From assembly GCA_017397845.1 (NCBI GenBank), contig JAFQHU010000008.1:1-64000 (forward strand): 64,000 bases of DNA. Direction: 5' to 3'. The translations under genes were made by a program, and so were the position numbers. The DNA is from Clostridia bacterium (GTDB taxonomy: Bacteria; Bacillota; Clostridia; Oscillospirales; Acutalibacteraceae). Of this stretch, positions 54,486-63,535 are shown in pieces. A model generated the notes under the pieces. It ran no database searches and was not told the origin of the DNA. It worked only from the letters and a program-made list of their open reading frames with translations. Positions within the stretch are counted from its first letter, which is position 1, and every line of letters begins with the position of its first letter.

Positions 54486-54842
54486 TCAACTTTCTACCTT
54501 TTGTTTTTTCGTGATTGAAACAAGTATTTTTATAAGTTCCATACAGTCATTATAAATACTTTCAAAGTGTTTAGCTTCTATGTAATCACTTTCGTGAAGA
54601 AGTTCAAGCCAATATATTGTCTCCTCGGCTTCTTTAAGAGAAATATTGAATTTGGCATAAAAATCGGCAGAACTCTGCCCTCTGACAGCTTCCCTGGCAT
54701 TAGCACCGATGCTTGTGCCACTGCGAAGAATTTGCTTGGAAAGAACATACTCTCTTTTTTCTGTTGTCAAATATTTATACAATTTAATTATTCTTAAAGC
54801 AAAATGTTTACTTTTATCTAAAATTGCATTGTTCTCTTTCAT
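54486..54842 (-). CDS. S23/IVP-type four-helix-bundle protein
   Basis: A 118-residue helical protein of the family first seen encoded in 23S rRNA intervening sequences (TIGR02436-type). Motifs are FALRIIKLYKYL, SKQILRSGTSIGANAREA, and SLKEAEETIYWLELLHES. ATG at 54842 follows GAAG. Upstream open frame reaches into the heptad array but has no start support. Some relatives accompany retroelements or are mobile; its function alone is unknown. It splits the usual era-yqzL-recO order and lies between inverted heptad arrays R5 and R6. Confidence 0.8.
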   Translation of the reverse strand: MKENNAILDKSKHFALRIIKLYKYLTTEKREYVLSKQILRSGTSIGANAREAVRGQSSADFYAKFNISLKEAEETIYWLELLHESDYIEAKHFESIYNDCMELIKILVSITKKQKVES

Positions 54843-54906
54843 ATAACACACTTCTTTAAACGTCTTATTATGCGGAATATCACTTTTACAATTACGAAAT
54901 TTTCCT

Positions 54907-54940
54907 CGCAATTCCGCATTCCGCATTCCGCATTCCGCAT
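54907..54940 (-). repeat. Heptad array R6, at the era stop codon
   Basis: On the minus strand four ATGCGGA heptads and ATTGCG. The first base is the last A of the era TAA stop. Followed by the S23-type gene. Confidence 0.8.
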
Positions 54941-57082: not shown

Positions 57083-57676
57083 TTAAACAAAGAGAGTTTG
57101 ACCTGAAATGCAGCTCATAGCCAAAGCTATAAGTGAAATGTAAATGAAAAGTGCGGGGGTACCCTTGAATACATCGGGGATATAACGGTTGCCGTGTATG
57201 TGCTTCATGCCTGTGTTTATGAGGAGCATGGAAAGGGTAAAGGCAAACCCGGCACCGATACCCGTACCGACGGTTTCGGCAAAGGTGTAACCGGCTTTGA
57301 AATCAACCACGGGAAGGGCGATGATAAGAGTGTTCAGCGCACACATACCCAAAGAGTTCATGAATTTTTTGTCAGCCTTCAGCACTGTAAGACAGAACAG
57401 TGCCGAAAGTATATAAACCGCCAAAAGCACTATCGTGTATAATGCTATGCGGTATTTGGTTTCGAGAGAAAATATAAAGGGGATTTTATTGAGAAAGAAG
57501 CATATGAGCGAAAGGCTGAGAGAAAAAAACGTCACGGTGCCTCCGTACATAAAAAAATGCTTTGGGCGTTTTGCCATACGTATGCTTTCACTCATACCGT
57601 AGCCCGTACTGAAAATAATATTCTGTACCAACATAGCATAAAGGGCGGCGGTAAGCATCGAGGTGAAGTGGGTCAT
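57083..57676 (-). CDS. RnfA-like membrane subunit with one missing Fe-S cysteine
   Basis: A 197-residue protein with six membrane segments, in the RnfA/NqrE family. It has FAETVGTGIGAGFAFTLSMLL and DVFKGTPALFIYISLIALA at the right places. Each RnfA normally supplies two Cys to the intramembrane [2Fe-2S] centre. In the GICP motif, here SSTGYGM-like (about residues 23-28), the Cys is absent. The second (in LGMCAL, Cys112) is kept. Overlaps the previous gene by four bases, so it is translationally coupled. Confidence 0.8.
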   Translation of the reverse strand: MTHFTSMLTAALYAMLVQNIIFSTGYGMSESIRMAKRPKHFFMYGGTVTFFSLSLSLICFFLNKIPFIFSLETKYRIALYTIVLLAVYILSALFCLTVLKADKKFMNSLGMCALNTLIIALPVVDFKAGYTFAETVGTGIGAGFAFTLSMLLINTGMKHIHGNRYIPDVFKGTPALFIYISLIALAMSCISGQTLFV

Positions 57677-58461
57677 TTTCCGTCACCGCCTTTCTTTTCT
57701 TCCGTATCTGTGTGTCTGGGCCGGATCGTATCACCGTAATCACGGATGACCTTCGGTTTGGCCTTATTTTTATCGGCGAAAAGACCGGGATCCTTTTTTT
57801 CCGGCTTTTCATAAACTGCATTCATCGAAAAGGTGTCACGGACTTCATCGGGATAAAATTTAATGAGAAGCCATTTGTGTCCCGCTGCCATAAAGCCTAA
57901 AATGACCAATACCGTAAAGGGCATAGCGGTTTGGGGAAAACGGGGCAAAGTTTCCGGTGAGGTGAAAAGTGAACCGTAGGTTATATATTCTCTTACGGCG
58001 CCGACCGTCAGTGCGACGGCACCGTAGCCGATACCGGCGGCGACACCGTCTGTAAGAGCATTTACGGCACTTGTTTTACAGGCGAATTTTTCGCAGCGGA
58101 TAACGGCAAGAGCATTGACACAAAGCATATAAAAATAAATACCGAGACCTGCTCCGCCGTCAGAGGTGAGGGAAAATATATATTTGTCGCACAAAAGAAC
58201 CACGGCCAGGGAAATAAGGGTATAAACAGCCATGCGGAGCCAACGGGGTACTTTTTTCAGCGTAAGACTCGTCAGCACCTCCGTCACCGTAAGTACAGCC
58301 GTAACGCCCAAAGCGATACATAACCCGTTCACCGCCGTGGTGGCGGCACCGACTATGGGGCATATACCGATTATCTGTGTGAGCACAGGATTGTGGACAA
58401 AGCTTCCTTTGAAAAGAGCGGTAGAAAGACTGAGTACAGGTTTTGATTTTTTGTTTTTCAT
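57673..58461 (-). CDS. RnfE-like membrane subunit with one missing Fe-S cysteine
   Basis: A 262-residue protein; the first about 200 residues follow RnfE/NqrD. The first Cys is in IIGICPIVG (Cys34). The second half, normally NC followed by IILGRAEAF, reads VNALAVIRCEKFA, so Ala117 is in the Cys position. A cytosolic C-terminal tail of about 60 residues is rich in Lys, Asp and Arg and is unusual for the family. Overlaps rnfD-like and rnfA-like by four bases each. Confidence 0.8.
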   Translation of the reverse strand: MKNKKSKPVLSLSTALFKGSFVHNPVLTQIIGICPIVGAATTAVNGLCIALGVTAVLTVTEVLTSLTLKKVPRWLRMAVYTLISLAVVLLCDKYIFSLTSDGGAGLGIYFYMLCVNALAVIRCEKFACKTSAVNALTDGVAAGIGYGAVALTVGAVREYITYGSLFTSPETLPRFPQTAMPFTVLVILGFMAAGHKWLLIKFYPDEVRDTFSMNAVYEKPEKKDPGLFADKNKAKPKVIRDYGDTIRPRHTDTEEKKGGDGK

Positions 58462-59474
58462 TTTGTACCCGCCTTTCTTTTGAGTGCTTCTTTTTTCTTC
58501 ATGAGGGGCTTTTTATATTTTTCTGCTGTCTTTTTGGTGAGTATGGTTTCTCCCGTAACAGCGGGCCACAGAGCGTTTGTGATGAGAATACTGAAGCATG
58601 CTGCGTCGGGTGTTTTGGAAAAATATCTCAAAAGCATACATACTGCACCGCCCGTAAGGCCGTAAAGGAAAGCTCTGACAGGCTTACGGGGTGAGGTGAC
58701 CGGGTCGGTTATGAGAAGCAAAGAGACGAAAATAAGTCCGCCGGCGCACAGCTCGATTATCACCGATGACATTCTGCCGGAATTTACTCTGGGGAAAAGG
58801 AAGGCAAAGACCGCCGCCGACAGAAGATAGCCTGCAGAGGTGAAAAGTCTTTTCGGATGTCTTATGGCCATATAACCGAAGCCGCCTGCCAGCACCAACA
58901 TGCTTGTGGTACCGATGGCACCGGGGTAAGAACCCGACAGCAGAGATATTCTGCCGAAAACATTCAGAGAAAGGCTGTTTCCTTTTGAAAGCATATCGAA
59001 AACGGTTTCTCCCTTTACGAAACCTTCACTGCCGAAAAAAGCAAATTCACTGCCTGAAGCAGGATAGGTGAACACTGCGTCGGTGAACATCATCGCCGCA
59101 AAACAGAAGCCGGCCGCAGCGGGAAAAAACGGAGCATTTCTTACATCGCCGAAGGGGAGCTTCGCCGCCAACACGGCGAAGGCCGAAGCACTTATGCCCA
59201 CATAAAAGGGGGCGGAAACAGGCAGTAAAAGAGCAATTATCATGCCTGTGGTAAGGGCACTAAGGTCGCTGAGAGTGTTTTTTTTCAGCACCGCCTTAAA
59301 GCTGACAGCTTCACATAAAACTGCAGTAGCCGAGCAGATAAGAATTTGCCACAGAGCATATATGCCCCAATGATAAATTCCCACTGCGGACAGAGCAGCA
59401 CAGATGGCGAAAATGTCAGCATTATATCTGAAAACAGGATTTTTAAAAGAAAAAACTTCTTTACTGTTATGCAT
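58458..59474 (-). CDS. RnfD-like membrane subunit
   Basis: A 338-residue protein with about nine membrane segments, RnfD/NqrB family: NPVFRYNADIFA, LSDLSALTTGMIIALLLPVSA and PGAIGTTSMLVLAGGFGYM. RnfD carries FMN linked to a Thr in an (S/T)GAT motif. The corresponding place reads VKGETVF, with Thr157 kept but the context changed. A Lys-rich tail follows the last helix. First of the D-E-A gene trio, 17 bases after rpe. Confidence 0.8.
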   Translation of the reverse strand: MHNSKEVFSFKNPVFRYNADIFAICAALSAVGIYHWGIYALWQILICSATAVLCEAVSFKAVLKKNTLSDLSALTTGMIIALLLPVSAPFYVGISASAFAVLAAKLPFGDVRNAPFFPAAAGFCFAAMMFTDAVFTYPASGSEFAFFGSEGFVKGETVFDMLSKGNSLSLNVFGRISLLSGSYPGAIGTTSMLVLAGGFGYMAIRHPKRLFTSAGYLLSAAVFAFLFPRVNSGRMSSVIIELCAGGLIFVSLLLITDPVTSPRKPVRAFLYGLTGGAVCMLLRYFSKTPDAACFSILITNALWPAVTGETILTKKTAEKYKKPLMKKKEALKRKAGTK

Positions 59475-59491: not shown

Positions 59492-60154
59492 TTAAAAGTA
59501 TTTTGCAGCCTTTTCACGCAAAAGGGCAATAGCCTCTTTGGGGTCCTGTGCACCGAAAACGGCAGAGCCTGCCACGAGTACGTTTGCACCTGCTTTGGCG
59601 GCTGTTTCTACTGTGGCGGGGGAAATACCGCCGTCAACCTGGATGTCCATTTCAATATTTCTTCTTTTACATTCCTCACGGAGCTTTTCGATTTTCGGCA
59701 TCATATCTGCCATAAAGCTTTGTCCGCCAAAGCCGGGCTCTACGGTCATGACGAGAACCATACCTAATTTTTCGAGATAAGGATATACTGCTTCGATTTC
59801 TGTGCCGGGTTTGACGGCTAAAGCGGCAATTTTTCCCTTTTCTCTGATGAAATCGATGGTTTCATCGACGGGTGAGTCAGCTTCCACATGAAAGCAGATA
59901 ACATCTGCACCCGCATTAATAAAATCGGGAATGTATTTGAGAGGCTCGCTTATCATAAGATGGCAGTCGAAAACAAGGTCGGAGCATTTTCTGAGGCATT
60001 TTATCAAGGGTGCACCTAAGGTGATATTGGGAACGAAATGTCCGTCCATAACATCTATGTGAAGCCAATCGGCACCGCAGCGTTTCATATTTTCGAATTC
60101 TTCACCCATTTTTGAATAATCACAGGAAAGAATAGACGGTGAAATTTTAATCAT
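59492..60154 (-). CDS. rpe: Ribulose-phosphate 3-epimerase
   Basis: A 220-residue TIM barrel enzyme interconverting ribulose 5-phosphate and xylulose 5-phosphate. It has ISPSILSCDYSKMGEE, LHIDVMDGHFVPNITLG (metal His and catalytic Asp), DCHLMISEP, TVEPGFGGQSF and QVDGGI. AAAGGAG precedes the ATG. It leads the minus-strand operon with the rnf-like genes and era. Confidence 0.97.
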   Translation of the reverse strand: MIKISPSILSCDYSKMGEEFENMKRCGADWLHIDVMDGHFVPNITLGAPLIKCLRKCSDLVFDCHLMISEPLKYIPDFINAGADVICFHVEADSPVDETIDFIREKGKIAALAVKPGTEIEAVYPYLEKLGMVLVMTVEPGFGGQSFMADMMPKIEKLREECKRRNIEMDIQVDGGISPATVETAAKAGANVLVAGSAVFGAQDPKEAIALLREKAAKYF

Positions 60155-62387: not shown

Positions 62388-62948
62388 ATGAAGCTTCTTT
62401 TCGATTTGTTTGTTATATTTGCCCGCATCGGAGGCTTTACCTTCGGAGGCGGTTATGCTATGCTTCCCATGCTCCAGAAGGAAGTGGTGGAAAAGCGTAA
62501 GTGGGCAACACAGGATGAGCTTATGGATTATTATGCCATCGGTCAATGCACACCGGGTATTATCGCCGTTAATGTGGCAACCTTCATCGGCACCAAGCTG
62601 AGGGGCTTTTGGGGTGCGCTGTTTGCCACTTTGGGCGTAATAACTCCGTCAATAATTATCATTATGATAATCGCCGCATTTATCAGCGGTTTTCAGGATA
62701 TAGAGATTGTTACCCATGCCTTCAACGGCATAAGAGCTGCAGTCGTGGCGCTTATTCTCTCTTCGGTAATCAAGCTTTCAAAAAAGAGCATAGTTGACAA
62801 AATTACTGTGGTAATTTTTGTTTTGGTGGCCATTCTTTCCTTTTTCACGGATATTTCACCCGTTGTATTTATTATCGCGGTGGCATTTATTTCTCTTGCC
62901 GTCAATATGATTAAGGAAAAGAAAATGAAAGGGGGAAAAGAAAAATGA
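62388..62948 (+). CDS. Chromate transporter half, N-type
   Basis: A 186-residue membrane protein, one of the two short (SCHR) halves of a ChrA-type chromate transporter. The N-terminal signature FARIGGFTFGGGYAMLPMLQ and YAIGQCTPGIIAVNVATFIG are typical. CHR proteins export chromate, or an unknown physiological anion. AAAGGAGG precedes the ATG. Overlaps the next half by four bases. Confidence 0.9.
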   Translation: MKLLFDLFVIFARIGGFTFGGGYAMLPMLQKEVVEKRKWATQDELMDYYAIGQCTPGIIAVNVATFIGTKLRGFWGALFATLGVITPSIIIIMIIAAFISGFQDIEIVTHAFNGIRAAVVALILSSVIKLSKKSIVDKITVVIFVLVAILSFFTDISPVVFIIAVAFISLAVNMIKEKKMKGGKEK

Positions 62949-63535
62949 TTTTTTTAGAGCTTTTTTTCCGTTTCTTTTTCGTGGGACTTTTCTCTGTGGG
63001 CGGCGGACTTGCCACTTTACCCTTTCTGACAGATATGGGAGAGGTTACCGGATGGTTTAACCAAACTGATATTTCGAATATGATAGCCATTTCCGAATCT
63101 ACTCCCGGTCCTATCGGTATAAATATGGCAACCTATGTGGGATTTCAGATGGGTGAAGGCCTCGGAGGCATGCCTGGAGGTCTTTTCGGTGCACTGGTAG
63201 CGCCCTTAGGTTTGACCGCTCCGGCACTTATCTTGGTTTTAGCCATTTCAAAGGTACTGCTCAAATTCCGTTCATCAAAGTATGTGGAGTGGGTGTTTTA
63301 CGGTTTGCGTGCCGCCTCTCTCGGCCTTATCGCTTCCGCCTGTATGGGTGTGGCTAAGATAGCCTTTTTCTCCGCAGATGTTTTCGCGGAAAGCGGAAAT
63401 TTTCTGATGGCTGTGGATTATAAAAGCATTATTCTTTCGGTGCTTATTTTTATCGGTGTAACGAAATTCAAAAAAATCCACCCCATTGTGTTTATACTGA
63501 TTGCGGCGGTGGTGGGGGTAGTATTTAAGTTCTGA
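62945..63535 (+). CDS. Chromate transporter half, C-type
   Basis: A 196-residue partner of the preceding half: FFVGLFSVGGGLATLPFL and ISESTPGPIGINMATYVGFQ. The two halves normally form a heterodimer in the membrane with opposite topology. It overlaps the previous gene by four bases. Followed by a small lipoprotein gene. Confidence 0.9.
   Translation: MIFLELFFRFFFVGLFSVGGGLATLPFLTDMGEVTGWFNQTDISNMIAISESTPGPIGINMATYVGFQMGEGLGGMPGGLFGALVAPLGLTAPALILVLAISKVLLKFRSSKYVEWVFYGLRAASLGLIASACMGVAKIAFFSADVFAESGNFLMAVDYKSIILSVLIFIGVTKFKKIHPIVFILIAAVVGVVFKF

Follow-up and report, generated by a model that had tools for sequence, protein, structure and literature searches.

Genes of the locus

Within the window, that is, the whole stretch of 64,000 nucleotides that was analysed, three genes encoding RnfD-, RnfE- and RnfA-like membrane proteins follow one another (Table 1). 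A preliminary description of this DNA, made from the letters alone, had reported three tightly overlapping genes of this kind, and the coordinates, the common position on the minus strand, the overlaps of 4 bp each (D/E and E/A) and the Pfam assignments confirm this. All three proteins score above the cut-offs of PF03116 and PF02508 and far below the curated cut-offs of the NCBIfam rnf and nqr models, including those for rnfD/E/A and nqrB/D/E. The nearest solved structures are RnfA/D/E and NqrB/D.

The trio belongs to a compact cluster, with rpe located 17 bp upstream and a DUF4015 gene 11 bp downstream, followed by era and recO. The missing rnfG, rnfB and rnfC and the presence of rpe in front of D were likewise described correctly: none of these three rnf genes was found at the window locus or at the locus of any D-E-A relative. 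Neither is a redox subunit, including NqrF and NqrA/NqrC, encoded alongside the trio in the window. Elsewhere in the window, era and recO are separated by a gene for a 23S rRNA intervening-sequence protein, and two adjoining, overlapping chromate-transporter-family genes form a split ChrA-type pair. In many relatives a MecA-like gene stands next to rpe in the opposite orientation, separating it from the Rnf-like genes or from DUF4015; this gene does not occur at the window's own trio locus.

Table 1. Position of the trio, its neighbours and further features mentioned in the text
Feature	Position	Strand	Profile match
RnfD/NqrB-like membrane subunit, 338 aa	58458..59474	-	PF03116, 176 bits
RnfE/NqrD-like membrane subunit, 262 aa	57673..58461	-	PF02508, 110 bits
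RnfA/NqrE-like membrane subunit, 197 aa	57083..57676	-	PF02508, 55 bits
DUF4015 putative glycosyl-hydrolase-like protein, 409 aa	55842..57071	-	PF13200, 97 bits
rpe, ribulose-phosphate 3-epimerase, conserved upstream neighbour of the trio	59492..60154	-	TIGR01163, 264 bits
23S rRNA intervening-sequence protein	54486-54926	-	PF05635
Chromate-transporter-family gene pair	62388-63535	+	PF02417, 181 + 127 bits
MecA-like gene, relatives	L041:4461-5039, L073:8233-8790, L135:3821-4414, L138:5197-5778		PF05389
RnfE of a C-D-E-A locus, extended N-terminus	L042:5857-7374		
RnfE of an ordinary rnf operon, C-terminal tail	L046:5875-7335		

According to the gene-order table the DUF4015 gene is located downstream of the trio across the window's genus and in many relatives. 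We considered its product as an obligate fourth subunit, which is unlikely: the gene is present in congeners without the trio and trails ordinary rnfB elsewhere. Because it is kept where the trio is absent, the DUF4015 protein is probably not a subunit of the trio. At loci from several families (L083, L084, L086 and L046) an ordinary rnfCDGEAB operon, or rnfB at the start of a contig, is followed directly by DUF4015, an arrangement which suggests that the association of rnf with DUF4015 is old.

Cofactor and ion-path sites

Site numbering follows A. woodii, where the membrane [2Fe-2S] cluster is bound by RnfA C25 and C113 and by RnfE C25 and C108 (PMC11889175). The window counterparts are Ser29, Thr116, Cys34 and Ala117, respectively, so that three of the four ligands are gone and RnfE Cys34 is the only one remaining. 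The preliminary description had counted two losses. Its replacement of the cysteine in the NC site of RnfE by Ala117 is correct, but the RnfA NC cysteine (A. woodii Cys113) is lost as well; the GICP cysteine of RnfA is indeed missing, but the residue aligned with it is Ser29 (in G-M-S-E) and not Gly27. RnfA of the window retains Asn115 and has a new Glu30. In RnfE, Arg76 and Glu124, the equivalents of the A. woodii R67/E115 gate, are retained and Cys123 is new. In A. woodii the exchange R67A and the exchange of Glu115 for Gln or Lys cripple Rnf, whereas E115A does not (PMC11889175).

RnfD has Phe117 in place of the riboflavin ligand Asn123, and Asp249 is retained as Asp257. The flavinylation motif is degraded to V-K-G-E-T157, as the KGET context noticed earlier had indicated; the trio does not have the ApbE motif around a covalent-FMN threonine, and across the clade this position is occupied by Ser, Thr, Ala or Asp.

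The predicted structures demonstrate that the membrane fold is retained in D and A of the trio. The AlphaFold model of the RnfD-like protein (pTM 0.81) matches RnfD 9eri_D with a Foldseek TM of 0.76, and the model of the RnfA-like protein (pTM 0.65) matches RnfA 7zc6_A and 9eri_A, also with a TM of 0.76; its helices are still broken near the former cysteine sites. For the D model, urea transporters rank next after Rnf/Nqr as a coherent group (probability 0.96-1.00, TM 0.40-0.50), with weak E-values of 0.02-0.1. A structural relation of RnfD/NqrB to urea/ammonium transporters has been described (PMC12174285).

Conservation of the losses among relatives

A contig scan of genomes yielded 24 loci, and 24 complete trios, including that of the window, were compared. 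The named relatives are Oscillospiraceae, Ruminococcaceae and Clostridia MAGs, and many of the genomes are MAGs. The gene order is D-E-A in 24/24 trios, with rpe upstream in nearly all. RnfA C25, RnfA C113 and RnfE C108 are each missing in every one of them, and RnfE C25 (Cys34 in the window) is present in 21/24. RnfD Asn123 is gone throughout (24/24), and Asp249 is present in 11 trios, the window's among them. The RnfA Fe-S cysteines are mostly replaced by Ser or Thr.

Other positions were retained: RnfE Arg67 and Glu115 and RnfA N112 in all 24 trios, and RnfE N107 in 23. Only 11 columns of RnfE are invariant across the trio clade, and R67 and E115 belong to them. Two new residues, RnfE Cys123 (window numbering) and RnfA Glu30, are also invariant (24/24), and RnfA Cys112 is limited to part of the clade. 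Concerning the Na+ gate mapped to RnfE Arg67-Glu115 with RnfA Glu88, the E pair is thus kept in 24/24 trios whereas Glu88 is lost in 24/24. The RnfA residues that belong to the Na+ path in A. woodii, E88, T110, Q85, Y105 and P107, are all replaced, so that half of the original Na+ route at most survives. A conserved C-terminal tail of RnfE (FYP...DTFS...DPGL...IRPR), seen in the first ten sequences and considered as a new interaction motif, turned out to be genus-limited.

Including further relatives, 45 divergent complexes from the same bacterial order were compiled. RnfA C25 and RnfE C108 are gone in 45/45, and each complex retains at most two of the four [2Fe-2S] ligands; no member of the clade has all four cysteines. 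As every one of the 45 complexes is damaged at the same positions, the losses are due neither to chance nor to a single odd genome.

Phylogeny and intermediate forms

In a tree built from the concatenated D, E and A sequences, the 45 divergent complexes form a single clade with a support of 100/100, separate from ordinary Rnf; the losses which the preliminary description proposed to look for in related genomes are conserved across this monophyletic clade. Forms with the order C-D-E-A are located at the base of this clade and in several branches. Presence and absence of RnfC switch three times on the tree; therefore RnfC was probably lost more than once.

C-D-E-A loci without G or B were found at L041-L044, L121-L129 and L135. 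Their RnfC keeps both 4Fe-4S motifs with all eight Fe-S cysteines and has no glycine-rich NADH loop (observed at L041, L042, L043, L121-L129 and L135), and the riboflavin ligands of their RnfD are mostly kept. In the CDEA sister group RnfD Asn123 is present in 11/13 complexes and RnfE Glu115 in 3/13. Judged from these sequences, such C-D-E-A complexes may represent a second Rnf derivative that is partly redox-competent. The RnfE of one of them (L042) carries a low-complexity N-terminal extension of about 290 residues, and the ordinary RnfE at L046 a long low-complexity C-terminal tail.

A full rnfCDGEAB operon is located between rpe and DUF4015 in L046. The descent of the trio from Rnf and the order of losses follow from the tree and from the state of sites and subunits in the C-D-E-A compared with the D-E-A forms. 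The route leads stepwise from a full rnfCDGEAB between rpe and DUF4015 via C-D-E-A to D-E-A: the first to go were B and G together with the AE cluster and the binding of NADH; RnfC went later and, in the clade of the window, the riboflavin Asn too.

Selection and distribution

Using four close relatives, dN/dS values of 0.06-0.10 for D, 0.08-0.17 for E and 0.04-0.07 for A were obtained, with 0.01-0.06 for era and rpe. The trio genes are under purifying selection, and their products evolve faster than those of rpe and era. Reading frames are unbroken in all loci that were opened, and the clade covers dozens of genera. Taken together, these analyses demonstrated that electron-carrying ligands have been lost from proteins that are maintained by purifying selection.

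Within the window's genus the trio is present in 10/24 genomes. At least 11 congeners have rpe followed directly by DUF4015, in three of them with a gap of about 20-40 bp; this absence is clean, without an assembly gap, and the trio is therefore dispensable. In an order-wide profile search 51/394 genomes had a match stronger than 1e-20. Among the best-scoring loci 20 were opened with their flanks, and the locus at 1e-20 proved to be an ordinary Rnf. Among 398 genomes sampled across the phylum, only the window itself and a single genome of the window's family gave stronger matches; the sole match from outside the order (G827) was an ordinary rnf with all cysteines.

Ordinary Rnf in the same and related genomes

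A search of the window's genome by family for rnf and apbE genes revealed a second, complete and ordinary rnf elsewhere, together with apbE (L031). This operon has D, E and A genes of its own and contains the only RnfC of the genome; the E and A proteins of the trio share about 23-26% identity with these ordinary counterparts. An ordinary rnf is co-present in nearly all D-E-A genomes checked and in all well-assembled ones, and the D-E-A form was found only beside ordinary Rnf. The single candidate for a trio genome without ordinary Rnf (G045/G020) was discarded: its contig ends just after apbE, where rnf would come. Among C-D-E-A genomes, G245 (99% complete, two contigs) is without ordinary Rnf and FMN_bind, and G029 (98% complete) is without ordinary Rnf, FMN_bind and ApbE. 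Because these two genomes hold C-D-E-A, the complex as a class, represented by its C-D-E-A members, is maintained independently of ordinary Rnf.

Interpretation

The view of the preliminary description that the trio is a derived membrane complex with another job, and not a normal Rnf, is supported by the conservation of the losses throughout the clade, the purifying selection and the relatives without ordinary Rnf. We propose that it is a paralogous D-E-A membrane core derived from a complete rnfCDGEAB operon that formerly stood between rpe and a DUF4015 gene. B, which feeds in the electrons, G, the periplasmic flavoprotein, and the [2Fe-2S] site in the membrane have gone, and in the lineage of the window so have RnfC and the flavin sites of D; the membrane fold has stayed. 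Electron transfer of the Rnf type from ferredoxin to NAD+ would no longer be performed. D, E and A presumably still assemble as one complex, in which the E/A pair may offer a redox-independent path for a cation or a small solute, perhaps with participation of the urea-transporter-like D. The former cluster cavity would now have Ser29, Glu30 and Asn115-Thr116 as its lining on the A side and Cys34, Asn116 and the Arg76/Glu124 pair on the E side. As a substrate we favour a cation, because the Arg-Glu pair of E is conserved and the old cluster site of A has changed to Ser/Thr/Glu. An Rnf-derived core without Rnf electron transfer, most likely a putative redox-independent ion or solute route, is a reading to which we give somewhat less than even chances. 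Somewhat more tentative is the broader possibility that an Rnf core free of cofactors transports an ion or solute on its own; such transporters would be widespread in gut bacteria of the Oscillospiraceae type, and the CDEA complexes would be halfway stages that have survived.

The main rival to transport is a regulatory role: as a decoy paralogue, the trio could swap D, E or A with the canonical subunits or compete with them, so that inactive complexes tune Rnf. The constant company of ordinary rnf in well-assembled genomes of the D-E-A clade would fit, as would RnfE surfaces that are conserved better than the redox sites. We nevertheless consider this role unlikely, as CDEA relatives persist in G245 and G029 without any ordinary Rnf to regulate and the identity between trio and ordinary E and A is low for an exchange of subunits. 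Redox activity with changed cofactors, such as a metal or disulfide at Cys34 and Cys123 of E and Cys112 of A, or a weakly bound flavin in D, would account for the invariant Cys123 and the frequent Cys34, and a short redox wire seems to survive in the CDEA complexes with their eight RnfC cysteines and mostly preserved riboflavin ligands. For the trio itself it is rather improbable: the window's clade has neither RnfC nor the riboflavin Asn123 nor a linked electron donor or acceptor subunit, Cys112 is confined to part of the clade, and the CDEA genome G029 is entirely without apbE.

That the trio is the decaying remnant of a redundant rnf copy could explain the frequent disappearance of subunits or of the trio altogether and the faster evolution of its proteins compared with those of rpe and era. 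Such decay is already largely refuted and very improbable, given dN/dS values far below 1 for all three genes, intact frames and the spread over dozens of genera. Hardly credible at all is an ordinary Rnf for which the second operon supplies B, C and G. The genome does contain a complete rnf with apbE, but this is no set of missing partners, because its own D, E and A are present and intact; moreover, the trio is without three [2Fe-2S] ligands, the riboflavin Asn and the flavinylation motif, and A. woodii loses both growth on H2/CO2 and Fd:NAD activity when the cluster cysteines are mutated (PMC11889175).

A redox-independent D-E-A core would bear on two questions: which subunits of Rnf and Nqr are responsible for moving the ion, and whether this movement depends on the buried [2Fe-2S] cluster. 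In the trio, evolution has taken away the redox parts and selection has long preserved the membrane core, a natural case that could help to explain ion movement by Rnf. Should D-E-A prove to conduct an ion or a solute, its path for transport can be separated from the transfer of electrons, and a redox-driven pump would have turned into a redox-independent carrier. Rnf is an energy-conserving ion pump, and automatic annotation of the trio as RnfD/E/A would wrongly credit the host with a second one; in genomes like G029 and G245 the sole Rnf pump would be credited to a copy unable to pump by the known mechanism.

Comparison with known systems

No description of such a complex was found in the open literature on incomplete, second or cysteine-lacking Rnf or on DUF4015. 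With the Rnf complex (RnfABCDGE; A. woodii 9eri, C. tetanomorphum 7zc6) the trio shares homologous D, E and A subunits, the gene order once G is removed, the Arg67-Glu115 pair of RnfE and the TM4 asparagines. It differs in the absence of B, C and G, of three of four [2Fe-2S] ligands, of the riboflavin Asn and of the flavinylation motif, and has no electron path. The Na+-NQR (NqrABCDEF) is thought to go back to a duplication of rnf, with loss of rnfB and a change of function (PMC4014512), and is in this respect a parallel, a proposed rnf-derived copy with a changed function; however, Nqr kept the AE [2Fe-2S] cluster and the flavins and recruited NqrF, whereas the trio kept no full site and recruited no redox subunit. 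Two-subunit Nqr/Rnf-like complexes consist of an RnfD-like protein with an NAD-binding domain and an RnfG-like protein (PMC10979944). They are also reduced Rnf derivatives in which the flavinylation Thr of the RnfD-like subunit is lost, but they keep a flavinylated G and an NAD(P)H domain without A/E, and the trio is the reverse. With the urea/ammonium transporter family, finally, the trio shares a likeness in the predicted fold of D, at weak E-values, and a pore in this subunit is putative.
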